DNA of 64,000 bases, taken from positions 1 to 64,000 of the forward strand of contig DXAT01000060.1 of the NCBI GenBank assembly GCA_019116965.1. Reading direction: 5' to 3'. This DNA comes from Candidatus Coprenecus pullistercoris (GTDB taxonomy: Bacteria; Bacteroidota; Bacteroidia; Bacteroidales; UBA932). Numbering within the stretch: the stretch's first letter is position 1; each line of letters begins with the position of its first letter. Made by a program: the position numbers and the translations under genes. Shown here one piece after another: positions 11,555-58,166 of this stretch. A model generated the notes under the pieces. That model was given only the letters and a program-made list of their open reading frames with translations, was not told the origin of the DNA and did not search any database.

Positions 11555-11897
11555 AGGCATACACCAAAGACATCTTCGCAAACACCTTATCCCCGTCCTG
11601 CACCGTGGCCTTCACCGCCTCGTCCTGTATTCTCAGGCTGACACTGAGCGAGGATGTCTCTTTAGGAGACACCACGGCTATGAACTTCACATTCCTGGCT
11701 GTCCTGAGACAGGCATTCCTGCCGAGAGCACGCTCCACGCAGTCCGAAACCATCTGCAGCAGACACACACCGGGGGTTATGGGCTCCTCAGGGAAATGAG
11801 CCTTGTATATCACGCTGCCGGGATTGAGCTCCACAAGGCACTCAAACTCCCCGTCACTGCCAGAGACCGACTGTATCACATAAAGATCTGTATCCAT
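11547..11897 (-). CDS. FabZ-like 3-hydroxyacyl-ACP dehydratase (single hot-dog domain)
   Basis: 116 residues, one hot-dog fold. The catalytic block reads AHFPEEPITPGVCLLQM, with His34 in the position of the FabZ catalytic His and the PGVCLLQ helix behind it. It would remove water from 3-hydroxyacyl-ACP to make the double bonds of the polyene. It is shorter than housekeeping FabZ (about 145 residues), as cluster dehydratases often are. A second dehydratase-type domain is found in the fusion at 17138-17971. Confidence 0.88.
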   Translation of the reverse strand: MDTDLYVIQSVSGSDGEFECLVELNPGSVIYKAHFPEEPITPGVCLLQMVSDCVERALGRNACLRTARNVKFIAVVSPKETSSLSVSLRIQDEAVKATVQDGDKVFAKMSLVYAYV

Positions 11898-11909
11898 ATC
11901 AGCTGTGTT

Positions 11910-12515
11910 TTATCTTAATTCAAATACATCAGTGCCGAGAGCCTCGTTCAGGCGGACACCGTATATGTCTATCCTGGTTCTGTCCCCGTTCTTCTCCTCC
12001 ATCTCGAGATAGCGCAGCAGGCAGGTGGACCGGTCGAAATACAGAGTCACCCTGCTTATTACCCTGCGCAGGTCCCTGTCCTTAGGAGTCAGCTCAGCTA
12101 CCGTCATGCCGTCCCGTATCGAGCTCCCGCAGTCGAAATCCCCGTCCGGAGCAAGACATCTGCCGCTGACAGTCTCCGCCAGAAGCTCCGATATCCGCCT
12201 GAACATATTGTCGGCAGGAGCCCTGGACACCTGGCCGTCGCCTGAGCGCATCGTCACCTTACCGCCGGATATGACCACCGCGAACTCTATCGGAGATATG
12301 TACTCCCACCTCAACGAGCCCCCGCTGTCGTAGACCATATAGCCCTCCGATTCCATCCCGCTGCCGATAGCCTCGATGTACTTGGTCTGACGGAAGCCGC
12401 ACTGCAGAGTCCTTATCGAGGATGACACCTCCATGATACGGTCCAGGTCCTGTCCGGCTACGGAAAGCGGACAGACACACAGTACCGTAAGAATTATATA
12501 CAGGACGCGCTTCAT
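11910..12515 (-). CDS. LolA-like periplasmic lipoprotein/lipid carrier
   Basis: 201 residues with a signal peptide (MKRVLYIILTVLCVCPLSVAG, cleaved near 20). The mature part follows the LolA pattern: LQCGFRQTKYI near the start, GSLRWEYISP in the middle, and a TLYFDRSTCLLRYLEM strand late. LolA-type proteins carry hydrophobic cargo across the periplasm. LolA-like genes accompany many aryl-polyene clusters, consistent with moving the polyene lipid to the outer membrane. Lies 4 bases downstream of the EamA transporter gene. Confidence 0.85.
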   Translation of the reverse strand: MKRVLYIILTVLCVCPLSVAGQDLDRIMEVSSSIRTLQCGFRQTKYIEAIGSGMESEGYMVYDSGGSLRWEYISPIEFAVVISGGKVTMRSGDGQVSRAPADNMFRRISELLAETVSGRCLAPDGDFDCGSSIRDGMTVAELTPKDRDLRRVISRVTLYFDRSTCLLRYLEMEEKNGDRTRIDIYGVRLNEALGTDVFELR

Positions 12516-12519
12516 ATCA

Positions 12520-12885
12520 TTACTTCATAATCATGACACAGCCGGCTATGATGAACAGTACCCCGAGCCATCTGACCATAGAGACATGCTCGTGAAACAC
12601 AAACATGGCCGCCAACAGGCCGAGAACATAGCATATGCTGGAAAGCGGATGCGCGATACTGAACGGCACATGCTTGAGTATATACATCCACAGCAGGCCT
12701 GCGATGCCGTAAGTCGTGGCACATACTGTCATCCAGCCTATGAAACGCCAGTTGGAAAAAGAGCCGAACCAGTACTCGCGCGACCAGCTGAACTGTCCCG
12801 CCGCCATGGTCGCCAGCTTGAGGGACACATGTCCCATCGTCAGAAACGCGCTCTGCACTACCGCTATCAGAACTATCTTCCACAT
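12520..12885 (-). CDS. Small EamA/DMT-type membrane protein
   Basis: 121 residues with four predicted helices: about 3-20, 44-68, 72-93 and 100-119. The helix after PFSIAHPLSSICYVLG and the ending WLGVLFIIAGCVMI are typical of single-EamA-domain proteins such as the ArnE/ArnF lipid-sugar flippase subunits. Such half-size transporters work as dimers. In this cluster a role in flipping a lipid-linked sugar or polyene lipid across the inner membrane is plausible but unproven. It lies 3 bases downstream of the ketosynthase-like gene. Confidence 0.8.
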   Translation of the reverse strand: MWKIVLIAVVQSAFLTMGHVSLKLATMAAGQFSWSREYWFGSFSNWRFIGWMTVCATTYGIAGLLWMYILKHVPFSIAHPLSSICYVLGLLAAMFVFHEHVSMVRWLGVLFIIAGCVMIMK

Positions 12886-12888
12886 ATT

Positions 12889-13866
12889 CTATATCCTTGT
12901 CAATAATACGAGGGCAACATTGTCCTCGGCTGTGTGATTGAGAAACAGTATCCTGTCCGGAGCTTCCTGGACTCCGGGACACAGCGTCCCGGGTATGCGT
13001 CCCTGCCCTATGCACACCGCAGCAGCATAGACTCCGAGAGCCGATGCCGTATAGCATTCCCCGAAGATATGCTTGTACCGCAGCTGAGGCACTCCGGGCA
13101 GCATCCGGTCCGCTATCGGATCAGGCTCCGTCATCACCGCATCCGGCCGGATGCCGCCGCACACGGCATGAAGAGCCTTTTCCAGCTCCTCCTCCGACGG
13201 CCGGTGCAGTATCCGCACGGCCTCTACCCTGCATATCCCGTTCCCCGTCAGGCAGGGTCCGGAAAGCATCATCGCCACGGCCGCCTCGGAGCACACATAC
13301 GTACCGGGAAGGACAAACCCGCATTTGCGGAGCAACACATAATACGACGGAGTTATCTCATCGAAACCTCCGACGAGCACCGTCTCCGCTTCTTTTCCCC
13401 GTATCTGCAGATACGCGTCATACAGAGCACTCTCAAATGACACGCTCCCGTGCGAGTAAGTGGAGTTGTATCCATGACAGCCGAACCTTATGGCAAGGGC
13501 CGAGGCTATGGTATTGTGGGTGGATTGCATGAAATAAGTAGGCTTGAGCATCTCCTCACCGTCACATACCTCATTGAGAAATGCCTCGGTATTCTCTATG
13601 CAGCCTAAGCCGGTAGCCGCGATTACGGCATCCGGGCATGTGATTCCGGACGCTGCCATAGCCTCAGAAGTCACTGCCACGGCCCTTTTCAGCAGGCGGC
13701 CCATGCGGCGGGCCTGCATACCCGGCACATAAGGCTTGAAATCCGGGTCCACCGAGACTGCAAAATCCTCCGTACCGTATGGCAAAGGAGTGTCCATCCA
13801 GCTTTCCGACAGGGGATTCTGGATAGATATCTGCTTTACGGCCCGTATGATAACATCTCTACTCAT
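12889..13866 (-). CDS. Ketosynthase-like protein without catalytic cysteine (chain-length-factor-like)
   Basis: The ATG at 13866 (MSRDVIIRAVKQ) overlaps the upstream ketosynthase by 8 bases and gives 325 residues. The thiolase fold is recognisable (ATGLGCIENTEAFL, THNTIASALAIRFG), but the nucleophile loop reads NSTYSHGSVSFESAL, with no Cys where active ketosynthases have TACS. Its adjacent position to a complete ketosynthase suggests a KS-CLF heterodimer, as known for ApeO/ApeC in Escherichia coli aryl-polyene synthesis. The C-terminal third is shorter than in a full KS. Confidence 0.8.
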   Translation of the reverse strand: MSRDVIIRAVKQISIQNPLSESWMDTPLPYGTEDFAVSVDPDFKPYVPGMQARRMGRLLKRAVAVTSEAMAASGITCPDAVIAATGLGCIENTEAFLNEVCDGEEMLKPTYFMQSTHNTIASALAIRFGCHGYNSTYSHGSVSFESALYDAYLQIRGKEAETVLVGGFDEITPSYYVLLRKCGFVLPGTYVCSEAAVAMMLSGPCLTGNGICRVEAVRILHRPSEEELEKALHAVCGGIRPDAVMTEPDPIADRMLPGVPQLRYKHIFGECYTASALGVYAAAVCIGQGRIPGTLCPGVQEAPDRILFLNHTAEDNVALVLLTRI

Positions 13867-42328: not shown

Positions 42329-43261
42329 ATGGCAAGGACAAGACAGATATGGATACTGGCAATCCTGTTCCTGTGCGGTGCGACAGCCTGCATCAGGGAG
42401 AACATAGATGATTGCGAGACTCCCGTTACATTGGATTTCCTCTATTTCGGAGATGAGCCTGTGGACATCTTCTCCCAGAGGATAAAGACCGTAGATCTTT
42501 TCATCTACGGCCAGAACGGAGATCTCGTCCAGACTGTCACATGCTCCGAAGCCGACCTTGCCTCCAGGCAGGGCGTCGACCTGAGGCTCCTCGAAGGCGA
42601 ATACCGTATCGTCTGCTGGGGCAACGCGGGAGAGAATACCCACATCGAAGCTGAGGGCAGTACTCCCCGTATCGGCGAGACATCCTGGTTTGAAGGCACC
42701 GAGTGCTCGGGCATCGACCCCTTGTACTTCGGCGAGAAGACCATTACCGTACCCCGTACCCTCAGACCGGTACGGGATACGGTAATTTATAATTCCTCGC
42801 ACATCACCATCGCTGTCAACATGATAGGCTTCGCCAACGCGGACAATTTCGACCAGATGAGTACATCCACGGCCGTTCCTGCATCGTCGGATGCCATCGT
42901 CACCCTCTCCCATGAGGATCTGAGCGCATGGATAGACTTCACCCATGTCCCGTCCGAGGAATTGACAGACTATGTACCCGAGCTCTCGGTAAGCTCCGAG
43001 ACCGAGGACACCTATACCACTCTCTACAGAGTACCCAAATTTCCCAACTCCACAGTAAGCGAGCTTGCAATACGCCGCAATGACACCGGAGAACAACTAT
43101 ACAGACGCTCTTTCGCCGACATACTCGAAACTCTCGGAATAGATGTCACCGAAAGAGACGAGCTTACCATCAAGCTCGACATACGGATATCCAACATGAA
43201 CGGCATCGTACAGATCGATGTCATCGGCTGGAGCAGCGAGATTGTGTACCCTATCGTATAA
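42329..43261 (+). CDS. FimB/Mfa2-family fimbrial anchor lipoprotein
   Basis: 310 residues with a lipobox (CGATACIREN, Cys near 21). The segment CETPVTLDFLY, then RIKTVDLFIYGQNGDLV and LLEGEYRIVCWGN are characteristic of the Mfa2/FimB family, which anchors the fimbria in the outer membrane and limits its length. It follows the fimbrillin by 27 bases, its usual place. Ends with a beta-rich region and a VIGWSSEIVYPIV strand. Confidence 0.9.
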   Translation: MARTRQIWILAILFLCGATACIRENIDDCETPVTLDFLYFGDEPVDIFSQRIKTVDLFIYGQNGDLVQTVTCSEADLASRQGVDLRLLEGEYRIVCWGNAGENTHIEAEGSTPRIGETSWFEGTECSGIDPLYFGEKTITVPRTLRPVRDTVIYNSSHITIAVNMIGFANADNFDQMSTSTAVPASSDAIVTLSHEDLSAWIDFTHVPSEELTDYVPELSVSSETEDTYTTLYRVPKFPNSTVSELAIRRNDTGEQLYRRSFADILETLGIDVTERDELTIKLDIRISNMNGIVQIDVIGWSSEIVYPIV

Positions 43262-43280
43262 CTATTACTATACCAAACCA

Positions 43281-44639
43281 ATGAACATCTCACGCTACAT
43301 ACGAGAATTTATAAAACTGACGGTCCTTTCCGCAGCTGTATGTGCTGTGGGATTACTTATGCCCTCATGCAAGGGCATGAACGAAAGCATACAGGACCGC
43401 ACTGGTGATATCAATGCCGTAGTACGCATCATCACCGGAGCCCCTGAGACCAAAGCCGTAAAAGATACGGACATCAACTCGATAGCCATCTTCGCATTCA
43501 AGGGAGACGCCCTTGTCGGCTATGTCTACGAGACCGGCCTGACCGCTTCAGGCGAGAATGTATTTCCGATGAACCTCAGCGACGAGGGAGCCATCGACTT
43601 CTACGCCATCGCCAATCCCGACCCGGGCTTTTTCATCCTGAAGCAGGACAGCGGCGAGACGATAGACCTTCGCGGAACATCCACCGCCGATTACCCGGAC
43701 TACATCACCCCTGATATACTCGAGGCCTCACGCGTGACACTCAACCCCGAGCGTCCCGCCGAGAGCTCCGACTGGTACACCCCGATGACCAACCTGCCGG
43801 GAGCCGGCCGCATCAACATGCGCTACACCGTAGATGGACCCGGCTGGACCGAGATCCCCCTTGAGCTCACCCGCGCCGTCTCCAAGATAGAGGTATGGTT
43901 CCGCTCGAGGGGCGATGTAAAAGGTACTACACCTACCAATACTACAACAGAAACAGAACGCATTTACGATGGCGACCCAATGCCCGACCCTAATGGTTAC
44001 AAACCGAGTGTTTCAGGCTCACTCAGCAGCTACTACAATATAGACGGGATGACGCTCAGCATGCCCGTATCGGATGCTGGACTCTATTCCGAAGATTCGG
44101 GATACGACGGAACATCCGTCACCACTGTATCCGGTCCGTTCAACTTCAGGACGGAGAACGACAACACTCTCTTCAAGGACTACCCCATAGGCAGCATCCC
44201 CAACAACTTCTACTCCGATGAATATTTCGTCCACATCTGGACTTACTATATATTTCCCAACACTTTCGGTGGCAACATGGCCGGAGAGGACGCCTCCTCC
44301 GGCGGCAAGGGCACAATCCTGACCGTCGACTACGCCCACCGTCAGGACAGCGGTGAATATGTTTACGATCGCTACGAAGACCATCATGGAACTGAAGGTG
44401 CGTTGTGGTGGGAAAAATCGTACATAGTATATGAATTCTACTGGAACTGGGTCTGGAGTGATCCTGTCCTGTACCCCTCGGCGCAGCAGCAGAGCAAGGA
44501 TGTCTACCTGCCCGCCTGCGAGCGCAACACCGCCATCCGCGTATGGTGCGCCCTCAACGACAACACAGACCGCACATTTACATACACAGTCTCCGACTGG
44601 GACGAGACCGTAAGCGTCAATGTTCCGGATTTCGAATAA
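43281..44639 (+). CDS. Minor fimbrial subunit lipoprotein (FimC/Mfa3-like)
   Basis: The ATG at 43281 gives 452 residues with a lipobox (GLLMPSCKGM). INAVVRIITGAPETKAVKD, VFPMNLSDEGAIDFYAIANPD and LTRAVSKIEVWFRS are typical of accessory fimbrillins, and the C-terminus (YTVSDWDETVSVNVPDF) is the donor-strand-type ending. Accessory subunits such as FimC and Mfa3 sit near the tip. The frame upstream stays open into the anchor gene, but the lipobox fixes this start. Twenty bases after the anchor gene. Confidence 0.85.
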   Translation: MNISRYIREFIKLTVLSAAVCAVGLLMPSCKGMNESIQDRTGDINAVVRIITGAPETKAVKDTDINSIAIFAFKGDALVGYVYETGLTASGENVFPMNLSDEGAIDFYAIANPDPGFFILKQDSGETIDLRGTSTADYPDYITPDILEASRVTLNPERPAESSDWYTPMTNLPGAGRINMRYTVDGPGWTEIPLELTRAVSKIEVWFRSRGDVKGTTPTNTTTETERIYDGDPMPDPNGYKPSVSGSLSSYYNIDGMTLSMPVSDAGLYSEDSGYDGTSVTTVSGPFNFRTENDNTLFKDYPIGSIPNNFYSDEYFVHIWTYYIFPNTFGGNMAGEDASSGGKGTILTVDYAHRQDSGEYVYDRYEDHHGTEGALWWEKSYIVYEFYWNWVWSDPVLYPSAQQQSKDVYLPACERNTAIRVWCALNDNTDRTFTYTVSDWDETVSVNVPDFE

Positions 44640-44654
44640 CACTATAATTCAGGT

Positions 44655-47600
44655 ATGAACATGAAACAGCATATACATCACATAATTCTCGGCATCGCAC
44701 TCCTCTCTGCGGCAGTTCTGAGCTTCAGCTGCTCCCGCAGCGACGAGGACCGTCTGCAGCCCGTAGAGCAGGTACCACTGTCCGATTTCTCCCTCAGCTT
44801 CGGAGTGGACGACATCGATGTATTCACCAAGGCCGGCCAGTCCGTCCGTCAGGAGAACAGGGTCACCGGCCTCTACATCCTGCTTTTCAACGCACAGGGA
44901 GAGCGCGTACACGGCAAAAGCTACTTTGTCGGCGGCGGTCAGAAACCCGACAGATACGATGACCAGATAACCAACTACACCGAGAAAGACTCGGAGACGG
45001 CCGGAGCCTCCATGGGTATCATCGAGAGATTCTTCGACAACTTTACCGGAAGCGCCTCGGACCTCTCCGGAGAGCTCACATTCTACGCCGTGGCCAATTA
45101 CAATACCACCATCGAATCCCAGCTCAAGGCAGAGAATCTGACCGAGGCCCAGCTTCTCGACATGCAGGTCAGCTTCGCCACTCAGGGCAATGTGTTCAGG
45201 ACCAACTTTCTGATGATAGCCAGTCAGGACGGCGTGACTCTCAACGCCACTGACTCGTACAACGGAGTCACCGTAGACCGTATCGGTGTCAACCTCCAGC
45301 TCAGACGCATCGACGCCAAGATATCGTTCCATGTATCGGTCAATATCCCCGGTGCAAGCAATGTGGCTTTCAACGACATGATCTACCGCGTCCACAATGT
45401 GCCCAATGTCACATACCTCTTCGAACAGCCTAAAGGCAGCAGCGGAAACAACACCTGGGACGCAGCTGCAGTGGCGCAGGCAGCCGGACAGACCGGATAC
45501 TCCTGCATGATGGACGACACCTACGACACTTTCGACTCCACATACACCGACCGCGTCGGAGGCGAGTTCTCCTTCTACCTGAGAGAGACGAGGCCTCTGC
45601 CGAAAAAGGAGATTACACCCGAGGAACAGGGCCACTGGTCTTCCCTTTACGCCATGCGCGAGGCCTGGGAAGGACAGTCCCCCGACAAGAAGACCCCGGT
45701 ACACAACCGTCAGTTCATCTACGCTCCCGACTACGGCACATTTGTCGAGATTACAGGCAATCTGTCCTATACCCGCAGAAACTCAAACGGAGAGACCGAG
45801 GAAGTCTACGGCGATGTGACCTACATCATCCACCTCGGTGAGACCGGTTACGATGCCAACAACCAGGAGGCCGTAAACAACTACGATGTGCGACGCAATG
45901 TCAGCTACATCTACAATGTCCGCATAACCGGAGTCAACAATATGGAAGTCGAGGTCGACACCCAGACCGAGGAAAGACCCGGAGTAGAGGGAGACCTCAC
46001 CATCTCCACCAACCGTCAGGTAACCTTTGACGCACACTACGGCCGCGTCCTTCTCGAGCTGGACAAACGGAACCTCTCGGAGGCAGGGTGGAGTGCGGAG
46101 ACTCCTCTCGGCACCATTGAGTATAATCCTGAGACAGGTCTCATCAATCGCCCCTACGACTACAAATGGGTACTCTTCGCCATCAACAGACATTTCGACA
46201 GCGACAACAACGGCCGCACTATGGTAAAATTCCCCGGCATACAGGCCTACGACGGAGGCATCAAATTCTTCGATCTGACCGGTGAAGATCAGATCAGGGA
46301 AGCTATAAAGAACGATTTGGGCAACAATCTCGACGGAAACGGACTTACTTTTAAAAACTATGTCCGCAATTACGATCACAACAACTACTACTATACAAGG
46401 CTCACTGAACTGGACGAGGACGCTTGTCTGATGGATATCAACCAGCTCATCAACTATCTCAAGTACAAAATGACCGAAGAGCCCGACTCCTACATCTTCG
46501 ACGGCAACCTCGTATACATCACCGCATTCGTGGATGAGTATACCTATCTTTACGACCCCAGGGAAGAGGACTACATCCATCCGGGAGAGCCAGCGCATGA
46601 ACATTCAGGTGCGGAAGAAAGACTGGCTCTGTGGAAAGAGTACACCAATGTGGGCAACCGTACCCTCAACATCCTGCCCATGACCAACATCAACTATAGT
46701 CCTGACCACAACACCTCGATTACAAATGCTTATATCACACTCACTCAGAGTTCGATAAAAACCATATACAACACGGATGACCCCAATATTTCCACAGCCT
46801 GGGGGCTGGAGACTGTAAACGAAACAGGCAAACTCACATATCTTGCCTCACACGGCGCTGTCGGTACCCGCACCAACACTACAAACAACGGCAGAACGAA
46901 CTTTATCAACTTCTGGATAGGAGGCAACAACAACTACGACAACGATGGGCAGATTCAATGGACATCTGTAATGACTGTCACTGAAAGGGTTGAAAACGCA
47001 AATGCACTGCAATCAAGCTATCGTGACGCATATCATGCATGTATCACGCGTAACCGCGACCTCAATGGTAATAATATCATTGACAAGAATGAAATCTACT
47101 GGTTCCTCGCATCCAAAGACCAATTAGCAGGCCTATGGATTGGTCAGCCCGCCCTGGAGCAAAGCGCCTGGATGTATCAGGGAAATGGTGATACGACAAA
47201 CCATCTCGTTACCAGTAGCTACTATTCCGGAAATAGTTACAATACCACAAACTTCTGGGTTCTTTGGTCTGAGGAAGGCACTGCATGGAGCCAGATTCAG
47301 GAATCTGGAGACGAAAAAGAAGATACCTATGATTACAGGTGCATAAGAAACCTCGGTATAGATATTGCCATGTCGGACGAAGCTCCTACCCATTACGCAT
47401 CCGTTTCTGGTATACATTATGATTCAAACGGAGACAGTTATTACACAGTAAGTACCTTACCCATAAACAGCCGAGCACTTCGTACCTCACAGGATGACGG
47501 TATCAATCTGCCTCTTGACAACGAGCGCAGTCAGAACAACCGTCCTTACCGCCGTTTTGATGTAAAGATTGGTGATGTCACAACAAACAACAACTCATGG

Positions 47601-47915
47601 GTATGGAATAACAACCTCATGGGCGAAAAAATCCAGGAAAACCAAAATCCCTGCCCTGAAGGGTGGCGTATTCCCAATCAGCGCGAGTTCCTTATAATGA
47701 TGTCCACTGTCACAGACTTGACATGGGGCGGTGGTATAGGAACATACGGTATCAACACATCATTCTCATTCAACGGACAAAGCGGTACTGAATACGCAAG
47801 CGGACAGCGCTATGGATTCGGATACGACGGTAATGTATTTCTCGTTGGAGGTAATGGATACGGACTTACCGCAAACCTTAAATTCCGGTGTGTGCGCGAC
47901 AACACCACGAACTAA
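44655..47915 (+). CDS. Large DUF4906-type fimbrial tip lipoprotein
   Basis: 1086 residues with a lipobox (AAVLSFSCSRSDE). The N-terminal third is fimbrillin-like (FSLSFGVDDIDVFTKAG, LTFYAVANYNT, LRRIDAKISFHVSV). A long beta-rich middle follows, and the C-terminal part ends in a region rich in Asn and Tyr with the CPEGWRIPNQREFLIM motif and a final CVRD, as in tip adhesins of these loci. Last gene of the operon, followed by a terminator at 47962. About 16 bases after the minor subunit. GC content drops in the last kilobase (Asn-rich stretch), a hint of a variable, possibly exchanged tip domain. Confidence 0.85.
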   Translation: MNMKQHIHHIILGIALLSAAVLSFSCSRSDEDRLQPVEQVPLSDFSLSFGVDDIDVFTKAGQSVRQENRVTGLYILLFNAQGERVHGKSYFVGGGQKPDRYDDQITNYTEKDSETAGASMGIIERFFDNFTGSASDLSGELTFYAVANYNTTIESQLKAENLTEAQLLDMQVSFATQGNVFRTNFLMIASQDGVTLNATDSYNGVTVDRIGVNLQLRRIDAKISFHVSVNIPGASNVAFNDMIYRVHNVPNVTYLFEQPKGSSGNNTWDAAAVAQAAGQTGYSCMMDDTYDTFDSTYTDRVGGEFSFYLRETRPLPKKEITPEEQGHWSSLYAMREAWEGQSPDKKTPVHNRQFIYAPDYGTFVEITGNLSYTRRNSNGETEEVYGDVTYIIHLGETGYDANNQEAVNNYDVRRNVSYIYNVRITGVNNMEVEVDTQTEERPGVEGDLTISTNRQVTFDAHYGRVLLELDKRNLSEAGWSAETPLGTIEYNPETGLINRPYDYKWVLFAINRHFDSDNNGRTMVKFPGIQAYDGGIKFFDLTGEDQIREAIKNDLGNNLDGNGLTFKNYVRNYDHNNYYYTRLTELDEDACLMDINQLINYLKYKMTEEPDSYIFDGNLVYITAFVDEYTYLYDPREEDYIHPGEPAHEHSGAEERLALWKEYTNVGNRTLNILPMTNINYSPDHNTSITNAYITLTQSSIKTIYNTDDPNISTAWGLETVNETGKLTYLASHGAVGTRTNTTNNGRTNFINFWIGGNNNYDNDGQIQWTSVMTVTERVENANALQSSYRDAYHACITRNRDLNGNNIIDKNEIYWFLASKDQLAGLWIGQPALEQSAWMYQGNGDTTNHLVTSSYYSGNSYNTTNFWVLWSEEGTAWSQIQESGDEKEDTYDYRCIRNLGIDIAMSDEAPTHYASVSGIHYDSNGDSYYTVSTLPINSRALRTSQDDGINLPLDNERSQNNRPYRRFDVKIGDVTTNNNSWVWNNNLMGEKIQENQNPCPEGWRIPNQREFLIMMSTVTDLTWGGGIGTYGINTSFSFNGQSGTEYASGQRYGFGYDGNVFLVGGNGYGLTANLKFRCVRDNTTN

Positions 47916-50076: not shown

Positions 50077-50103
50077 AAGATGCGAATATACACAATATTT
50101 AGT

Positions 50104-50111
50104 TATATTTG
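50104..50111 (+). promoter_or_regulatory. Promoter -7 element of the GldLM operon (TATATTTG)
   Basis: TATATTTG is an exact TAnnTTTG match 16 bases before the ATG at 50128. The leader would be only about 10 bases. On the other strand TATATTCG (50092-50085) could serve the TPR gene. No clear -33 box is seen. Confidence 0.5.
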
Positions 50112-50127
50112 CGCTTTCTTGAAAACT

Positions 50128-51210
50128 ATGAGCACACTTTTAACCCGGGGCCTCATCAGGGCCGCAGCGGCGTCTGCCGTCATATTCACCGTACTATGCA
50201 CATCGATAACCAATGCCCGCGCGCAGCAGGGCACCGTGCCGCCAGACAGCAGGAACTTTTCCTCCGCCAACTGGTATCTGTCGGTGATGGGAGGCGAACA
50301 GATTCTGCTCAAAGGCAGCGCCTCAGGCAAATATTTCGTCGGTAAGATACACGGAGGCACCTGGTTCGACTCCTGGTCCGGACTCAGGTTCAACTTCCAG
50401 GCCGGCATGAAACGCCTCGGCATGAACAGTTCCTCGCGATACTACAGTTTCGGAGCCGATTACAATCTCAATCTGGTACGGCTGTTCAACCCCAGGTCCT
50501 ACGACCCCGAAAGCCCGTTCTCGTTCAGCTTCTCCGCCGGTCCGTCCATGAACTTCGTACGGTATCCGTACCACGGCTGCGAATACACCCCGGCCGTGTC
50601 GCTCAACATCGGAGCGCAGATGGGCTACGACTTCTCACCGAGATGGGGCATCTACGCCGAGGTCATGTCATATACGATGGAGAGATTCTATACTCCCGGA
50701 TTCAATCTGTTCTTCGGCTTCGACTGCTCCATAGGCGTACGGTTCAGGATCACACCGCACAAGTACGGACACAGGGACAGCGACAGGCAGTACTACGAGT
50801 CACGCATCGAGGAGCTCTCCCGCCGGGTAAAGGAATTGGAAAGGCGTATGGAGAAGGAAGATGAGGACAGGCAGGTGATTATCGCGCCTGAGACCGAGGA
50901 CCTCTCCATAGACATCTACTTCGACGAGTTCAGCACATTCATCAGCCAGGAACAGCGCAGGAAGATTGACGGCATAGGCCAGTGGATGAGCGAGAACCCG
51001 GATTTCAATGTGAGAATAATCGTATTCAGCGACAATCTGGCGGACCGGAAGGCAGGCGAACGGCTCATGCACGGCAGGGCCGAGGTACTCGAGAAGCTTC
51101 TCGTGGACAAATACGGAATCGACCCGGAACGCATCGAGTCATTCTGCTCTGAAGAGGCAGGATACCGCAACTTCACCGGATGCAATGCCAGAATAATCTT
51201 TTTAAGATAG
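50128..51210 (+). CDS. Outer-membrane barrel protein with coiled coil and OmpA C-terminal domain, upstream of gldL/gldM
   Basis: The ATG at 50128 gives 360 residues; a longer frame from 50080 would cover the promoter. A signal peptide ends near SITNARAQ. Residues about 40-215 alternate in the manner of an outer-membrane beta barrel (many Tyr/Phe/Gly strands). Residues about 220-250 form a charged coiled coil (RIEELSRRVKELERRMEKE). Residues about 265-360 are an OmpA-type peptidoglycan-binding domain with conserved Asp and Arg (VFSDNLADRKAGERLMHGRAEVLEKLL). It precedes gldL by 14 bases, the place held by GldK in a standard type IX locus. Probable outer-membrane partner of the motor (inference). 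Confidence 0.82.
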   Translation: MSTLLTRGLIRAAAASAVIFTVLCTSITNARAQQGTVPPDSRNFSSANWYLSVMGGEQILLKGSASGKYFVGKIHGGTWFDSWSGLRFNFQAGMKRLGMNSSSRYYSFGADYNLNLVRLFNPRSYDPESPFSFSFSAGPSMNFVRYPYHGCEYTPAVSLNIGAQMGYDFSPRWGIYAEVMSYTMERFYTPGFNLFFGFDCSIGVRFRITPHKYGHRDSDRQYYESRIEELSRRVKELERRMEKEDEDRQVIIAPETEDLSIDIYFDEFSTFISQEQRRKIDGIGQWMSENPDFNVRIIVFSDNLADRKAGERLMHGRAEVLEKLLVDKYGIDPERIESFCSEEAGYRNFTGCNARIIFLR

Positions 51211-51224
51211 CAAGACAGAGAGCC

Positions 51225-51737
51225 ATGAATCTGAAAAAATTCCTCAAGAGCAATGCAGGCAGGAAATTCTACAATTTCGCATACTGCTGGGGAGCCTGTC
51301 TGGTAATCCTCGGCGCCGTATTCAAGATAGCGCACATGCCTTTCGACAGCGTGCTGCTGATGGTGGGCCTCTTCACTGAGGTTTTCATATTCTTCATATC
51401 AGGTTTCGACACCCCGGACGAAATCTACGAATGGGAGAAGGTCTTCCCTCAGTTGAAAAAGTCCGGAGAGGGAGGCAAGGGCACCGCCCAGGACGCCGTC
51501 GAACTCGCCCGGAAACAATATATGCAGGGACTTGAGACCATGAGGGAACGCGTGGACAGCCTCAACCGCATATATCTGGAACAGGAGGAGCGCATGAAGG
51601 CCGTCAGCGGCTCCATTGACCCCGGGACCATGGCCAGGATGAAAGAAGAGACCGCGAGGATGACCCGCCTGCTGGAAGAGCTCAATTCCAGATACAGCGA
51701 CATGCTCGACGCCTTGGGAACCAAACGCGGAAAATAA
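51225..51737 (+). CDS. gldL: GldL/PorL-like inner-membrane motor subunit
   Basis: 170 residues from the ATG at 51225. FLKSNAGRKFYNFAYCWGAC, a first helix at about 17-35, FKIAHMPFDS and a second helix at about 42-60 with GLFTEVFIFFISGF match GldL. Glu52 within helix 2 is the residue required for proton use in GldL/PorL. A coiled coil at about 95-160 completes it. It is shorter than typical GldL (about 215 residues). The TAATG overlap couples it to gldM. GldL forms the pentamer around a GldM dimer in the type IX secretion and gliding motor. Confidence 0.88.
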   Translation: MNLKKFLKSNAGRKFYNFAYCWGACLVILGAVFKIAHMPFDSVLLMVGLFTEVFIFFISGFDTPDEIYEWEKVFPQLKKSGEGGKGTAQDAVELARKQYMQGLETMRERVDSLNRIYLEQEERMKAVSGSIDPGTMARMKEETARMTRLLEELNSRYSDMLDALGTKRGK

Positions 51738-53077
51738 TGGCAGGATACAGACTACCTCCGCGTCAGAAGATGATAAACTTGGTTTACATCATTCTGATCG
51801 CAATGCTCGCCATCAATATCTCCGCCGATACTCTCGACACATACTCCCTTTTAGACAGAGGGCTGAAAACGCGTATCGGACAGATGCATTCTTTCAGCGG
51901 CAGTCTCCGCTCGGACATCGCCAAGGCACATCCGGCTACGGACAGCGCCATGATAAGGATAGATTCTATGACCAATGACCTACTCGCATACATCGACGGT
52001 CTCAAGGAGGACATCGCAAGGGCTGCTGACAAGAAAAAATACATCTCCGCCGACTCGCTCAGGAACATGGAAGAGCTCAACGCCGTCCCGGATGTGATGC
52101 TCTCAGCCGTCAACCCGAGAGGCGCCATACTGCGGGAGCGGCTCACCGCATACCGCGACACCCTCCTCGCCTCTGTCTCCGACCCGGATGTCCGCAGTCT
52201 CATCTCCTCCTGCCTGAGCATAGAGCACGACCGCAGGCTCACCTCCTGGGAGAAAGCCACATTCACCAGCATGCCGGCCATAGGTGGCATGGTGTATCTC
52301 AACACCCTGAAGGAAAACATACTCATATCGCAGACCGAAGCTTTCCGCGACATAGCCTTCTCCGTCATCTCCAGGCAGCGCAGCTCCGGGCCGGACACTG
52401 CCGGGACCGAGTCCAGATATGTGCTCATCAACAGCGACCAGAAAATAGTGGACAAGGACGGAACCATCGAAGTGCCCGTGGTCAGCGCATATCCCTACAT
52501 GGAGCGGATACTGTACTCGGAATATGACAATCCAGTCGAGATCATGGCCATAGGCATCATGCCCGATGCCATAGACTACCGGGTGGAGGGAGGCAGCGGC
52601 GGACTCAGGCACGGAAGGTACTACATCTGCCCCGATGCCGGAAGCTCCCGGGTACGCCTGCACATGAGCTGCGTCCGCAACGGAGAGAGGAAAGACCTCG
52701 GTTCCCAGACTTTCAGGGTAAAGCCGCTTCCGACTCCCTCGCCCTACATACTCCTGCAGGGCGGAGACAGATACACCGGCAATGTCCCTGTAGAGAAAAG
52801 CCGCATCGCTTCCGCCTTCAGAATAGGAGCAGGAATCTCTGAGCCGGTCGCCATCGACTATCAGGTCATCCGTTTCGAGACCGTGCTTATCCGAAGCGGC
52901 AACAAGGACATCATGTCCGCCGCATCCGACGGTCCGGAGCTCACAGACGCGCAGAAAAAACTTCTTCTGTCAGCGGAGAACGGAGACAAGATATACTTCA
53001 CCGGCATCACCGTCCGCAGTCCGAAGGGCAGCGCCACCTACGAGCTTCCTCCGGTCAGCGCCCCCGTATACGAATAA
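51737..53077 (+). CDS. gldM: GldM/PorM-like motor subunit
   Basis: 446 residues, somewhat shorter than typical GldM (about 510). The N-terminal PPRQKMINLVYIILIAMLAINIS block is the cytosolic stub and single membrane helix of GldM, followed by a long periplasmic region of several domains (helical about 35-220, then beta-rich). It would sit as a dimer inside the GldL ring and transmit rotation across the periplasm. No gldK or gldN and no SprA/PorV-type genes are in the window; the following genes are fimbrillin-like. Start fixed by the TAATG junction with gldL. Confidence 0.87.
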   Translation: MAGYRLPPRQKMINLVYIILIAMLAINISADTLDTYSLLDRGLKTRIGQMHSFSGSLRSDIAKAHPATDSAMIRIDSMTNDLLAYIDGLKEDIARAADKKKYISADSLRNMEELNAVPDVMLSAVNPRGAILRERLTAYRDTLLASVSDPDVRSLISSCLSIEHDRRLTSWEKATFTSMPAIGGMVYLNTLKENILISQTEAFRDIAFSVISRQRSSGPDTAGTESRYVLINSDQKIVDKDGTIEVPVVSAYPYMERILYSEYDNPVEIMAIGIMPDAIDYRVEGGSGGLRHGRYYICPDAGSSRVRLHMSCVRNGERKDLGSQTFRVKPLPTPSPYILLQGGDRYTGNVPVEKSRIASAFRIGAGISEPVAIDYQVIRFETVLIRSGNKDIMSAASDGPELTDAQKKLLLSAENGDKIYFTGITVRSPKGSATYELPPVSAPVYE

Positions 53078-53078
53078 A

Positions 53079-53110
53079 TTTGGACTTCTCGGTAAAGTTT
53101 CATAACTTGC
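53079..53110 (+). promoter_or_regulatory. Promoter before the OmpA/DUF3575 gene: TTTG and TAACTTGC
   Basis: TTTG at 53079-53082 and TAACTTGC at 53103-53110 are 20 bases apart, the same pair as upstream of the hydrogenase operon. The ATG at 53152 is 41 bases downstream. It lies inside the inverted repeat at 53092-53139. Confidence 0.45.
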
Positions 53111-53139
53111 AGACAATTAAACTTATTATGAAACTTTAC
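53092..53139 (+). repeat. Perfect 14-base inverted repeat around the internal promoter
   Basis: GTAAAGTTTCATAA (53092-53105) is matched by its exact reverse complement TTATGAAACTTTAC (53126-53139) with 20 bases between. The left arm covers the first bases of the -7 box and the right arm lies after the expected transcription start. No T-run follows, so it is not a classic terminator. It could be an operator for a dimeric regulator. A six-residue open frame (MKLYNH) starts in the right arm. Confidence 0.75.
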
Positions 53140-53151
53140 AATCACTGACAG

Positions 53152-54429
53152 ATGAGCTTGAACTATCATTTCCGAACCCTTTTCACGGCGGTTCTCGGGA
53201 TGATGATGTGCTCTGTGCCACCGGCATCAGGTGCCGGTGACGGTTCATTGCATCATACCATCACCACCGCCACAGACTCAATGTCCGTCTACTTCCATTA
53301 CGGAGACTCCGATGTCAGCCTGCGCATCAGCGAAGACCCTGCGGTGATGGAGGAGTTCCTGAGCATCCTGCGGCAGACCCACGCCTCAGGACAGCTCAGA
53401 CAGATTGAGATATGCGCCTGGTCATGTCCTGCCGGAGACTTCAGTACCTCTCAGAGAATAGCCAGACAGAGAGCACGGAATCTGGCCGACTACATCACCG
53501 CCCGCTCAGACATCCCCTCCGATATGATCAGTATCAAGGAGACCGGAATCGGATGGGAAGAGCTTGCCGCCTTAGTGGAGGCAGATCCCGATGTCCCCGG
53601 ACGCGAGACCGTCCTCGGGATTCTCGTAAACACCGATGTCTGGATCTTCGACAGTCAGAACAGGGTCGTGGACGGCCGCAAGAGACAGCTTATGAATGTA
53701 GCCGGAGGACGCAGCTGGTGGTATATGCGCGAGCATCTCTTCCCCAAGATCCGCCTGGCAGAGGCTCTCGTCCTGAGTGAGAAACCAGTCGAGGATACAG
53801 ACAGCGTGATGACCTCCCTGCCGGATACCACGACTGTTCCACCCGTCACACCTCAGGACACAGTCATCACCGACACCGCGCTGACGGTGCCTGCGGAGCC
53901 GGTCATCGTTCCGGAGAACGCAGCAGACGAGTTCACATGGGACGGCTCGAAAGTACTGCTGAAGACCAACATACCTTTCTGGGCCATAGTCGTGCCCAAC
54001 CTCGGAGTCGAAGTCAGGCTGGCCGACCACTGGTCTCTCGACATACCGGTATACTACAGTCCGTTCACGGTAGACCGCTGCTACAGGTTCAGGACATTCA
54101 CGATGCAGCCCGGCGTAAGATACTGGCTCAATCCGGCCATGAGGGGACACTTTTTCGGAGTACATCTCACAGGCGGAGCGTTCAATATCTCCGTCAATGA
54201 CCGCGAAAGATTCCAGGACACCGACGGTGTATGGGGTGCCGGCGTGGACTACGGTTATGCGCTTCCATTCAACGAGCACTGGGGCATGGAATTCAATATC
54301 GGTGCCGGCTATATGTGGACGCGCTACCAGACTTTCTACAACATCGACAACGGGGCCGCCTACAGCACCGGCATCAAGAACTATTTCGGAATCACCCGTC
54401 TGGGCATATCTCTAATATATAAATTATAG
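53152..54429 (+). CDS. OmpA-like/DUF3575 fusion outer-membrane protein
   Basis: 425 residues with a signal peptide (cut near PPASGAG). Residues about 60-200 hold an OmpA-like fold (CAWSCPAGDFSTSQRIARQRARN) and the block RQLMNVAGGRSWWYMREHLFP, shared with the left-edge protein. A Pro/Thr/Val-rich linker spans about 215-260. Residues about 268-425 are a DUF3575 barrel (LLKTNIPFWAIVVPNLGVEV) ending in ISLIYKL. It combines in one protein what is split into two genes at 38679-40776. A likely outer-membrane base for the two lipoproteins downstream. Confidence 0.85.
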   Translation: MSLNYHFRTLFTAVLGMMMCSVPPASGAGDGSLHHTITTATDSMSVYFHYGDSDVSLRISEDPAVMEEFLSILRQTHASGQLRQIEICAWSCPAGDFSTSQRIARQRARNLADYITARSDIPSDMISIKETGIGWEELAALVEADPDVPGRETVLGILVNTDVWIFDSQNRVVDGRKRQLMNVAGGRSWWYMREHLFPKIRLAEALVLSEKPVEDTDSVMTSLPDTTTVPPVTPQDTVITDTALTVPAEPVIVPENAADEFTWDGSKVLLKTNIPFWAIVVPNLGVEVRLADHWSLDIPVYYSPFTVDRCYRFRTFTMQPGVRYWLNPAMRGHFFGVHLTGGAFNISVNDRERFQDTDGVWGAGVDYGYALPFNEHWGMEFNIGAGYMWTRYQTFYNIDNGAAYSTGIKNYFGITRLGISLIYKL

Positions 54430-54434
54430 GAGGG
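54428..54434 (+). promoter_or_regulatory. Strong Shine-Dalgarno AGGAGGG
   Basis: AGGAGGG overlaps the TAG stop of the preceding gene and sits 6 bases before the ATG at 54441. Canonical Shine-Dalgarno sequences are uncommon in Bacteroidota, and nothing as strong was noticed at the neighbouring genes. Confidence 0.6.
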
Positions 54435-54440
54435 TCAAGT

Positions 54441-55448
54441 ATGGACAGAATATCACGATTCACATCAGTTCTGACGGCCGCAGGCATTATCCCGGCCATA
54501 CTCCTGCTTGCCGCGGGATGCGTTCACGAGTATCCTGAGGAAAACGCCGCTGTCGACCCGACCGAGATTGCGCTCAATATCGGACTCAGCACACCCGCAC
54601 CTCTGACGCAGAGCCCGTCCGGATATGTTTATTTCACAGCCTGGCTCTACAAAGGAGACAATACCGGGACGCCTGTCGCATGCTACACCGCCTCAGCGGC
54701 ACGCGGCTCCGACGGCATCGCCTCCGTCAGCTTCGATGCATCGCTGCACGCCGGAAAGTACACCTTGGCCGTATTTGCGGCAAGCTCTCCCGACAGCACA
54801 GGAGATGGCTGCGTCTACGATGTGTCCGACCTCAGCGGCATAGTCTTCAAGGACAATGCCTACACCGGGTCAGACGACCTGAAGGAATGCTATGACCTGC
54901 GCATGGAGATAGACCTCCCCTATGACAGATGGTTCGGCACCGACTCCGTAGAAGGTATCCTCGAATACCCTGTAGGACGGGTAGAGATCATATCGGAGGA
55001 CGCGGCCGAATTCGCCACGAAGCAGCTTGCAGGCAGACTTGACGCTGTCCCGGAAGTTCTCAGCGACGAGTTCTGGCAGGCCTACCGGATACGCTGGGAC
55101 TATGCACTGTACAGCCCCGTAGGCTACAATGCCGTAACCGGTGTGCCCAACCTCACCGACACAGGTGTAGGCTTCCTTACTGACCTCACTCCGATTTCTG
55201 AGGACGAGACCCATTTGGGATTTGACTATATCTTCGTCAACGGAGAATCCACCACCGTCAACATCTCGCTCAGCCTCTACGAACAGGCTACCGGAGAGCG
55301 CATCAATACATATTCCGGCATCAAGGCCGATATTTACAAGGGCCGCGTCACCGTCATCCGCGGGGACTACCTCACCACAGAGCAGGGCTCCGGCGTCGGC
55401 ATCGATCCCGGTTTCGAGGATGACATAGAAATCGTCCTCCCCGATTAG
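54441..55448 (+). CDS. DUF6562-like fimbrillin-type lipoprotein (shorter)
   Basis: 335 residues with a lipobox (LLLAAGCVHEY, Cys near 29). The mature protein has the fimbrillin-like plan: ALNIGLSTPAPLTQSPSGY, LHAGKYTLAVFAASS, and a final RVTVIRGDYLTTEQ...GIDPGFEDDIEI block. That ending is shared with the N-terminal domain of the next protein (VRGNFLTKG, DINPGFNE), so the two are related. DUF6562 proteins occur in fimbrial loci of Bacteroidales. Probable anchor or base subunit of a surface fibre. Confidence 0.78.
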   Translation: MDRISRFTSVLTAAGIIPAILLLAAGCVHEYPEENAAVDPTEIALNIGLSTPAPLTQSPSGYVYFTAWLYKGDNTGTPVACYTASAARGSDGIASVSFDASLHAGKYTLAVFAASSPDSTGDGCVYDVSDLSGIVFKDNAYTGSDDLKECYDLRMEIDLPYDRWFGTDSVEGILEYPVGRVEIISEDAAEFATKQLAGRLDAVPEVLSDEFWQAYRIRWDYALYSPVGYNAVTGVPNLTDTGVGFLTDLTPISEDETHLGFDYIFVNGESTTVNISLSLYEQATGERINTYSGIKADIYKGRVTVIRGDYLTTEQGSGVGIDPGFEDDIEIVLPD

Positions 55449-55490
55449 AAACACTAACCTCAATTCATTAACATTTAATACCAAACGATC

Positions 55491-58166
55491 ATGAAAAACA
55501 GACTTTCGTTCATCCTGTTGCTTCTGGCGGCTCTGACAGTCAGCCTGTCATCCTGCCAGAGAGAGGAGGAGCTGTCCGGCACAGGACTTCCCTCCGATGT
55601 CACACTGTCAGTCGCCATCCCCAGCGGAATCAATGTTAAAAGCGCCGAGAACCCGGGTGACGGCACGCTTGTCAACCGCTGTATCCTCGAGATCTATGAG
55701 AACGGCACTCTCGTCGGAGAACCTCACTACGCCGACATTGCAGGTCTTCAGGCCACATTCTCTGTCCGTTTGGTGACAGGCCGCTCCTATGACTTCGTAT
55801 TCTGGGCTGACTGCGCCGAAGGCTCGGCAACCGAAGGATTCACCGATGTCTACTACAACACCGCTGACGGTCTTGCCGACATAACTCTCATCCCCGAGGC
55901 TTACATCAACAGCAATGACGGGATCGACGCATTCTACGGCAGCTACAACGAGACCATCGAAGAAGGCGGAGCACTCAGCTTTACCCTCTATCGTCCGTTC
56001 GGCCAGGTCAATCTCTACACTCTCGATGTCAATGCCCTGCCCGCAGGCACTGACCTCACAGGCGCTGTAGCGAGAGTAAGCTATGCCGAGATTCCCGCCG
56101 GCTTCAACGCCCTCGAGGAGACCATCAGTACCGAGCGCATAGCCATAGCTCCCGCTGAGTTCGCCGAGGTCAACTTCCCCGCAGTGGGCCAGGCGCCCGA
56201 GGATGGAGTACGCATCAGCTTCGACTACATCTTCGCATCCCCCAACGAGGACGAGACACTTGTCAACTTCACCCTTGAGCTCGACCAGAACGGTCAGGAG
56301 CTCTGCGCTGACTTCGAGGCTTCCAACATACCCGTACGCCGGAACTACCGTACCAATGTAAGGGGTAATTTCCTCACCAAGGGCATGGACATCACCGTCG
56401 ACATCAACCCCGGCTTCAACGAGCCTGACAACGAAGTGCTCATCGAGGACTCTGAAGTAGCCGACAACCTCGTAATCAACTCATTGGAATCTGCCGACAT
56501 CACCTACGACAGCTTCACCATCAACTACTCCTACACCTACGAAGGCACTGATCCCATTACCGAGACCGGAGTTTCCTACCGTCCAGCCGGCTCCGATGCC
56601 GAATACATCAGCGTGCCCGCCGAACTTGCCACCAACGCAGAGCCCGTAGAACTGTCCGTAACTGTCTACGGACTTGAGCCCGGCACCGAATACGAGATCG
56701 TATGCTACTTCGTCATCAACGGAGAGCGCCTCAACAGCGAGCCTGTCACAGTCGCCACAACCGAGGCTGTTGCCCCTGACTATGTACTTGTATTCGAGGG
56801 TATCACATTGCCTCAAAGCATAGCTTTCGAAGGCACCGGATCCTCTTTCCAGCAGTTATTCAACTATACATACCCCGACCAGGTTCCCGGCTTCGGATAC
56901 CTCTATTCAATAACCGGCCCTGAAGGATGGTTCGTCGATGCATTTGCCGGCACACTCACCATCTATCCCACAGCCAATGCCGTAGCATCAGGCGATATCA
57001 AGGCCGTCTTCACTTCCAGCGAGGAGGCCACTGAGGGTGAGCTTCTGAACGAGCAGGTGCTCTTCAATGTCTCCGTCGACCTGCCCGTAGAATACTTCTT
57101 TACGGTAGCGGATGTCACTTCCCCCGTCAGCTTCGAGGCCGCTCAGAGCCAGGTCTTCACATACACCACCAACACAGCTCAGGAGCTTGAGGGCATCACC
57201 GTCGCATTCACCGTTCCCGAAGGCTGGAGCGCAGATGCTGCTGACGGTTCCCTGACCGTCACAGCTCCCGCTGACGAGAACTCGGGAGTAGCCGAAGGTT
57301 CGGTCTCCGTCACATTCACCGATGCTGAAGGCGTCTCTGTCTACTCAGCCGACCTCTTCACCGTCAGCGTGACATTCTCCACCGGCGGCGGCGAGGACCC
57401 TGCCGGTCCCAATATCGGTGACTATTACTATTCCGACGGCACATGGAGCACGAACCTCAATGCAAGCAAGACAGTAGTCGGAGTCGTATTCTGGACTGGT
57501 GACCCCACCGCTAACGATTCCAAGCTCGCCGCTGACCATCCGGAGTGTACCAACGGCCTCGTAGTCGCCCTGAACGCAATCAACAATGTTGCCTGGGGCG
57601 TTACAAAATCAGGTGCAGACTGGATGCCTGATCCTGCTAACTGCGTCAGCATATGGGCAGAAAGCAATATCAGCTATGAGCAGTCACTTGCATTCAATCA
57701 AAATATAAGCTCTACACTCTCTGATGATCATTTAGCGTTGAATAGGAACAAACACGGATATGCCAATACTCAGACCCTCCTGGCATTTAATGAAGCCAAT
57801 CCGGATCTGGCGACTTTGGCCCAATACATTTCAACATATTCCACTTCTGCTCCTGAAGGAACAAGCGGATGGTTCATCCCCTCTGTCAACGAATTCACTT
57901 TATTCCTCAATCCGGAGAATGAGGCCGTCGCTCATTTCGGACCCTACTATAACGGCGAATCCTTTGACCATGTCGATAACCTGAGCACCCTTCTCCAGAA
58001 CGCAGGCGGAGCATCCCTTGCAGCCGACACATGGCTTTCAAATGAGGTATCCGTCGGAAGTACAAACAACGCACTGTTCGCTAAATATTGGAGAAATGAT
58101 GAGTACTGTTACAAGTCCAACTCGAAAGCAGACTCGTTTGACCTTCGTCTCATTCTGGCGTTCTGA
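55491..58166 (+). CDS. DUF6562-like large lipoprotein with Ig-like repeats and a C-terminal adhesin-type domain
   Basis: 891 residues with a lipobox (VSLSSCQREE). Residues about 30-310 form the DUF6562-like domain (VTLSVAIPSGINVKSAEN; RRNYRTNVRGNFL). Fibronectin/Ig-like domains follow at about 330-430, and two BACON/PKD-like repeats at about 430-640, each opening F...VTFE and ending AVFT or VTFT. The last about 240 residues (DYYYSDGTWSTN, GWFIPSVNEFTLFL) resemble the FISUMP-type C-terminal domains of tip adhesins. Terminator at 58213. Likely the distal, ligand-facing part of the second surface structure (inference). Confidence 0.8.
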   Translation: MKNRLSFILLLLAALTVSLSSCQREEELSGTGLPSDVTLSVAIPSGINVKSAENPGDGTLVNRCILEIYENGTLVGEPHYADIAGLQATFSVRLVTGRSYDFVFWADCAEGSATEGFTDVYYNTADGLADITLIPEAYINSNDGIDAFYGSYNETIEEGGALSFTLYRPFGQVNLYTLDVNALPAGTDLTGAVARVSYAEIPAGFNALEETISTERIAIAPAEFAEVNFPAVGQAPEDGVRISFDYIFASPNEDETLVNFTLELDQNGQELCADFEASNIPVRRNYRTNVRGNFLTKGMDITVDINPGFNEPDNEVLIEDSEVADNLVINSLESADITYDSFTINYSYTYEGTDPITETGVSYRPAGSDAEYISVPAELATNAEPVELSVTVYGLEPGTEYEIVCYFVINGERLNSEPVTVATTEAVAPDYVLVFEGITLPQSIAFEGTGSSFQQLFNYTYPDQVPGFGYLYSITGPEGWFVDAFAGTLTIYPTANAVASGDIKAVFTSSEEATEGELLNEQVLFNVSVDLPVEYFFTVADVTSPVSFEAAQSQVFTYTTNTAQELEGITVAFTVPEGWSADAADGSLTVTAPADENSGVAEGSVSVTFTDAEGVSVYSADLFTVSVTFSTGGGEDPAGPNIGDYYYSDGTWSTNLNASKTVVGVVFWTGDPTANDSKLAADHPECTNGLVVALNAINNVAWGVTKSGADWMPDPANCVSIWAESNISYEQSLAFNQNISSTLSDDHLALNRNKHGYANTQTLLAFNEANPDLATLAQYISTYSTSAPEGTSGWFIPSVNEFTLFLNPENEAVAHFGPYYNGESFDHVDNLSTLLQNAGGASLAADTWLSNEVSVGSTNNALFAKYWRNDEYCYKSNSKADSFDLRLILAF

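Follow-up and report, generated by a model that had tools for sequence, protein, structure and literature searches.

A GldLM motor without GldM domain D2, encoded beside an OmpA-type outer-membrane protein in two families of Bacteroidales

The window analysed here, a stretch of 64,000 nucleotides from contig DXAT01000060.1 of Candidatus Coprenecus pullistercoris (assembly GCA_019116965.1; 1.97 Mb in 91 contigs, 91.7% complete), carries three adjoining genes that encode an OmpA-type outer-membrane (OM) protein, GldL and GldM. Solved GldL5–GldM2 complexes are proton-driven motors with a GldM arch of ~180 Å. To our knowledge, the only roles described for GldLM are to drive type IX secretion and gliding. 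The three genes, hereafter the unit, comprise the following features; the start of gldM overlaps the gldL stop by one base.

50080..51210, + strand: gene of the OmpA-type OM protein, 376 residues as called, with signal peptide, barrel, coiled coil and OmpA-like domain
50893..51207, + strand: OmpA-like domain; the aligned members retain Arg333 and have Asp318 or a conservative replacement of it
51225..51737, + strand: gldL, short form, 170 residues from the ATG at 51225, with two transmembrane (TM) helices and a short cytoplasmic tail
51378..51380, + strand: codon of GldL Glu52, equivalent to Flavobacterium johnsoniae GldL Glu49 in the alignment to PDB 6ys8
51737..53077, + strand: gldM without domain D2, 446 residues, according to TIGR03517, Pfam and a structural model
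52382..52480, + strand: linker replacing GldM D2, from a comparison of alignment lengths

The unit was found at 14 loci, 13 of which have an intact gldM. These are divided between the family of the window (the window's group, which includes locus L044) and another family of the same order (the second family); 399 genomes were sampled from each.

GldL of the window matched TIGR03513 (E 7e-40), over the NCBIfam equivalog cut-off, and PF22827 (E 6e-26). Among solved structures, it aligned with PorL (PDB 7sat, E 1.5e-26) and GldL (6ys8, E 8e-20). Glu49 of F. johnsoniae GldL is essential and Glu59 is required for gliding only (PMC8986121). In the alignment, Tyr13, Lys27, His30, Glu49 and Glu59 of that protein correspond to Tyr20, Lys34, His37, Glu52 and Asp62, respectively. 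A glutamate occupies the Glu52 position in all 13 unit rows and in 32 rows of type IX or other motors. Moreover, Tyr20, Lys34 and Glu52 of GldL and Arg9 of GldM are invariant across the 13 intact unit members. With its two-TM domain and a conserved Glu in the second TM helix, GldL belongs to the GldLM/PorLM family. Unit GldLs are shorter, however: they range from 151 to 191 residues versus 239 to 413 residues in type IX systems, with no overlap.

GldM matched TIGR03517 (E 4e-69), also over the equivalog cut-off, and its Arg9 and helical D1 place it in the same family. Nevertheless, it does not have the four-domain D1–D4 organization of that family. Pfam identified GldM_1st, GldM_3rd and GldM_4th in the window protein but not GldM_2nd. 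The protein comprises a TM helix and helical D1 (residues 1–215), a linker (~216–247), D3 (249–330) and D4 (335–446), and the alignment of PorM to it covers 20–227 and 321–514. An AlphaFold2 model of low confidence (predicted local distance difference test, pLDDT, 66) contains the helical D1, the linker and two β domains; Foldseek matched this model to PorM (7cmg, E 5e-21). D2 was absent from every unit GldM scanned with Pfam, whereas two control GldMs showed all four domains. The D2 region spans 13–41 residues in unit GldMs versus 77–105 in type IX or other GldMs, and total lengths are likewise non-overlapping (414–454 versus 514–546 residues in type IX systems). Within the window's group, the linker motif SRYVLINxDQKIVxxDGTIEVP is conserved. 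One member, at ~4655 of locus L031 (genome G014), has a frameshift in gldM at a run of A, which is either a sequencing error or early decay. The initial annotation, made from the sequence of the window, had recognized gldM and a gldL that kept Glu52, and had read the short GldL (170) and GldM (446) as a specialized form. The profile scores, the alignment of Glu52 with Glu49, the missing D2 and the separate length ranges bear this out.

The partner protein has a signal peptide, an eight-stranded barrel (residues ~64–224), a coiled coil (~232–259) and an OmpA-like domain of the peptidoglycan-binding type (~272–376). Its AlphaFold2 model, also of low confidence (pLDDT 59), has eight strands, a 28-residue helix and an OmpA fold. 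The top Foldseek matches of this model were E. coli OmpA, OprF and the OmpA domain of Acinetobacter baumannii, and included OmpA-like domains solved with diaminopimelate. The Pfam OmpA match of the window protein (E 8e-5) is below the cut-off and those of its homologues at L071 and L106 are over it. Based on the model, the partner is probably an OmpA/OprF-type OM protein, with an eight-stranded barrel and a C-terminal OmpA domain; the initial annotation had described the same barrel, coiled coil and OmpA domain. An OmpA-type homologue is present at all 14 loci. For the partners of the second family, the alignment covers the coiled coil and the OmpA domain (E 1e-36) and the barrel has drifted, so the periplasmic part is seemingly what selection holds. 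Position 333 is Arg in 13 of 13 aligned OmpA members, and position 318 is Asp in 11 of them (Asn in L106 and Glu in L111). We take these positions to be the diaminopimelate-binding Arg and Asp of the family. At L110 (4910–5986; genome G1233), the gene of a second OmpA-barrel protein lies directly 5′ of gldL, giving this motor a pair of OmpA-type neighbours.

The recurrence of the unit was established with two profiles. A profile of the OM protein matched 6 of the 399 genomes of the window's family; in a named collection it matched five loci, one of which, L044 of Candidatus Cryptobacteroides intestinavium, was additional. At every such locus of the window's group, gldL and then gldM lie directly 3′ of the OmpA gene, and this OmpA-L-M arrangement occupies three unrelated chromosomal sites. 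A profile of the D2-less GldM matched G870, in the second family, where the order is gldL-gldM-OmpA, and then six further genomes of that family (G1246, G969, G1054, G1178, G1233 and G988). In all seven, gldL is short, gldM lacks D2 and the gene of an OmpA protein adjoins them, in the order L-M-OmpA. Overall, the 14 loci in two families have identical content, two gene orders and several sites. Among the type IX gldL loci examined, no such OmpA neighbour was found, save a weak, barrel-only match in G107. A scan of viral contigs yielded only two short matches (35%).

Of the genes of a type IX secretion system (T9SS), neither gldK nor gldN lies on either side of gldLM within the window, as the initial annotation had noted; no genome-wide search for gldK or porV was made. 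The genome-wide look for sprA and gldN that it had proposed found neither in the window's genome. In total, SprA was missing from each of the seven unit genomes searched in the window's group, the genome of L044 among them. It was likewise missing from G080. A same-family control gave a full-length match. GldN was absent from the three unit genomes searched (G000, G014 and G088) and from G080. Among 149 relatives, GldL occurs in 88 and GldN in 84, with both in 83; those with GldL and no GldN are G000, G014, G088, G080 and, with a weak GldL match, G087, and the one with GldN and no GldL is G026. Incomplete assembly cannot explain the absence of SprA and GldN because G088 and G241 are 99% complete. 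The T9SS cargo sorting domain TIGR04183 gave two weak matches in G000, but three control genomes match too and it is therefore not diagnostic. The searched unit genomes thus have neither the SprA/Sov translocon nor the GldN/PorN hub of a T9SS. In the second family, the D2-less GldM was the sole GldM match at E 1e-10 in G1246, G1178 and G1233.

Two other genomes arrange these genes differently. G080, which lacks SprA and GldN, has another kind of GldLM at L033 (1512–9912): the order is gldM-gldL, GldM has four domains and the pair follows several small secreted proteins in a row and an 898-residue protein, which by eye look chaperone/usher-like. In the tree, the G080 GldLM falls with the type IX motors. 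In G107, the type IX core is split, L063 (2942–6469) carrying porP-gldK-gldN without gldLM.

To place the unit motors, we calculated two trees. The first combined the one-family units with type IX motors from 14 genomes of that family. Here the unit motors came out as a single long-branched clade apart from the family's type IX clade, and joining the two was disfavoured (approximately unbiased, AU, test, p 0.026). The second, unrooted tree included the 13 intact unit motors of both families and excluded D2 and the GldL tail. A branch with 100/100 support separated all 13 from all type IX motors. The unit motor thus lies outside the type IX clade; a GldL/GldM tree had been suggested in the initial annotation. 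The unrooted tree allows the unit to be either sister to the type IX clade or a derived branch; the long branches call for caution. The first tree grouped the unit weakly with G107b (90/74), but the grouping disappeared upon adding the second family, and descent from G107b is therefore not proposed.

These data bear on the idea that the unit is the remnant of a decayed T9SS, its gldLM left over from a lost gldKLMN operon and on the way out. Such decay would be in keeping with the loss of SprA and GldN and with the frameshifted gldM of G014. However, the trio recurs in two gene orders and at sites that differ, its motor residues are invariant, its clade is distinct from that of the same-family type IX motors (AU p 0.026; 100/100) and species of the window's group retain roughly half to two thirds identity. 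We therefore consider decay highly improbable.

The surroundings of the window copy suggested a fimbrial role. The following products are encoded near it.

44655-47915: FimA-like protein, according to Pfam
54441-58166: DUF6562 proteins, according to Pfam

More broadly, fimbrillin/FimA-like, FISUMP-like, DUF3575 and DUF6562 genes flank the unit on both sides (43218-47915 and 53152-58166), such that it looks to be within or beside a fimbrial gene cluster. The downstream DUF3575 gene (Pfam, E 2e-45) and two DUF6562 genes (E 8e-60 and 4e-30) are real, as first annotated. Between gldM and the DUF3575 gene, at 53092-53139, is a perfect 14-bp inverted repeat, GTAAAGTTTCATAA, with a 20-nt spacer and no other copies in the window; it may mark a transcript boundary or an operator.

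In the fimbria-linked reading of the initial annotation, the motor would act on the surrounding FimA/DUF6562-type pilus genes. A fimbrillin-like gene also lies downstream of the unit in G014. Nevertheless, fimbrillin-like neighbours occur at only these 2 of the 14 loci, both in the window's genus, and were not seen at the other 12; the DUF3575 and DUF6562 genes were seen beside the window copy and next to none of the other 13 loci. Fimbrillin genes are common in Bacteroidales. With the perfect inverted repeat also standing between gldM and the DUF3575 gene, a motor linked to fimbriae is improbable. Of the initial annotation, then, the recurrence that it asked about, for OmpA-gldL-gldM, and a stand-alone motor without a type IX locus held up; the inclusion of the DUF3575 and DUF6562 genes in the unit and the fimbria-like target did not.

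Elsewhere, the neighbours differ. A divergent TPR gene flanks both the window copy and that of G014. In genus g23, the flanks are an arginine-decarboxylase-like gene (5′) and an RNA-methyltransferase-like gene (3′), and at L044 they are other housekeeping genes, all named by eye. In the second family, YjbH-like genes with a lipoprotein gene lie directly before the unit at three of seven loci (L106, L109 and L110), in genomes without a type IX-like GldM match; a Wzi-like gene adjoins it at three (L107, L108 and L109); and a GDP-mannose dehydratase-like gene, named by eye from sequence, is near two. These neighbours make the export or arrangement of envelope polysaccharide the best lead for the target of the motor, a lead and not a result, as neighbourhood is not function. 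In its specific form, the motor would power the export, placement or movement of capsule or exopolysaccharide via YjbH/Wzi-type OM proteins. The evidence for it is one of gene neighbourhood, and the neighbours in the window's group are housekeeping genes or a TPR protein; we hold this form to be a tentative possibility.

From its gene content, recurrence, missing D2, kept motor residues and separate clade, we interpret the locus as a distinct, T9SS-independent GldLM subfamily: a three-gene module of an OmpA-type OM protein, a short GldL and a D2-less GldM, in which the OmpA protein would replace the hub. We assign this reading a probability of roughly 0.6. By analogy with the solved motors, GldL5–GldM2 would use the proton gradient to rotate the GldM dimer. 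The shortened shaft (D1-D3-D4) would extend to the partner's coiled coil or its OmpA domain, at the peptidoglycan or the inner face of the OM, and would act on this protein or be braced by it. The partner could thereby take the place of the PorKN/GldKN hub, linking the motor to the OM or wall. In the T9SS, D4 of PorM alone suffices to bind PorN, and binding of PorK was seen only with D2–D4 present (PMC5790014); the PorM tip has been modelled inside the PorN ring (PMC12635249). As no PorN was found and D2 is missing, the shorter arch would stop closer to the wall, at the height expected for the partner's coiled coil and OmpA domain.

The same OmpA domain lends itself to another arrangement, in which the OmpA protein clamps GldM to peptidoglycan as in a MotAB stator. 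GldM would then be fixed, and the pentamer of GldL would rotate within the inner membrane to work on a target there or in the cytoplasm. The domain is of the peptidoglycan type, its Arg333 invariant and its Asp318 retained in most members; according to a review, GldLM lacks a peptidoglycan-binding domain and its anchoring is unexplained (PMC9127263), and MotB is anchored to peptidoglycan in this manner (PMC9389320). By contrast with MotAB, the axle subunit has no such domain: GldM ends in D4 and the partner is an integral OM protein. Moreover, GldM retains D4, with which PorM contacts its hub at the distal end, and the shortened cytoplasmic tail of GldL leaves less for cytoplasmic targets. A stator of this kind is therefore unlikely.

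Several observations weigh against the favoured reading. G870, G969 and G1054 also carry a GldM matched in two pieces, like type IX GldM, and a T9SS-linked role is possible there. The contact between GldM and the OmpA protein is inferred, and neither AlphaFold2 model is of more than low confidence (pLDDT 59 and 66). At the position aligned with the diaminopimelate-binding Asp, one OmpA member has Asn and one has Glu. Few genomes carry the unit (6 of 399 and 7 of 399 of those sampled), and the polysaccharide neighbours were not seen around the window's own group.

The compact motor of some gut-type Bacteroidales, with its constant OmpA pairing, suggests a previously unrecognized way to deliver energy to the cell surface, and that the GldLM motor has been reused. 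The Bacteroidota may even hold a further GldLM-powered machine besides secretion and gliding, a minimal motor–OmpA module that energizes OM or surface polysaccharide processes without type IX parts, its shortened axle directly contacting a peptidoglycan-bound OM protein; this is plausible, at less than even odds. How GldLM is braced against the wall and passes force to the OM is an open question (PMC9127263), and a minimal natural GldLM with a single constant partner reduces it to three genes. A genome with proteins annotated as 'type IX secretion motor PorL/PorM' need not have a type IX system, since both window proteins pass those NCBIfam cut-offs; according to a review, T9SS components occur in a minority of Bacteroides (PMC7872030). 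No description of a GldLM–OmpA module was found in the literature searched, which did not extend to some relevant papers on GldLM and on the T9SS of gut Bacteroides, so an earlier mention is possible.

Among the closest known systems is the type IX GldLM. It shares with the unit a two-TM GldL with the essential Glu and a GldM with Arg9, helical D1, D3 and D4. The unit differs in having no D2, a short GldL tail, no gldN or sprA found, a separate clade and the OmpA pairing. PorG, an eight-stranded OM barrel that is disulfide-linked to the PorKN hub of the T9SS and thought to transmit force (PMC12635249), likewise works with a GldLM-driven chain. The unit barrel differs by its coiled coil and OmpA domain, and no PorN was found to which it could be bonded; the likeness noted is one of architecture. 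With the OmpA/OprF family, the partner shares the eight-stranded barrel and the C-terminal domain of the peptidoglycan-binding type; it differs by the coiled coil between them and by its constant linkage to gldLM. MotAB, TolQR-Pal and ExbBD-TonB are also ion-driven inner-membrane motors that work with peptidoglycan or OM proteins, but the unit belongs to a different motor family and its peptidoglycan-type domain is on a separate OM protein. Finally, L034 of G107 (8091–13760), a second gldKLMN-type locus of that genome, encodes a 729-residue fusion of an OM barrel with GldK, together with GldL, GldM and a divergent GldN. Its barrel, beside gldLM, is weakly similar to that of the unit (E 1e-6). 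Unlike the unit, this locus retains a GldK-like domain, fused to the barrel, as well as GldN and a four-domain GldM. The fusion is another case of a barrel joined to the motor chain.

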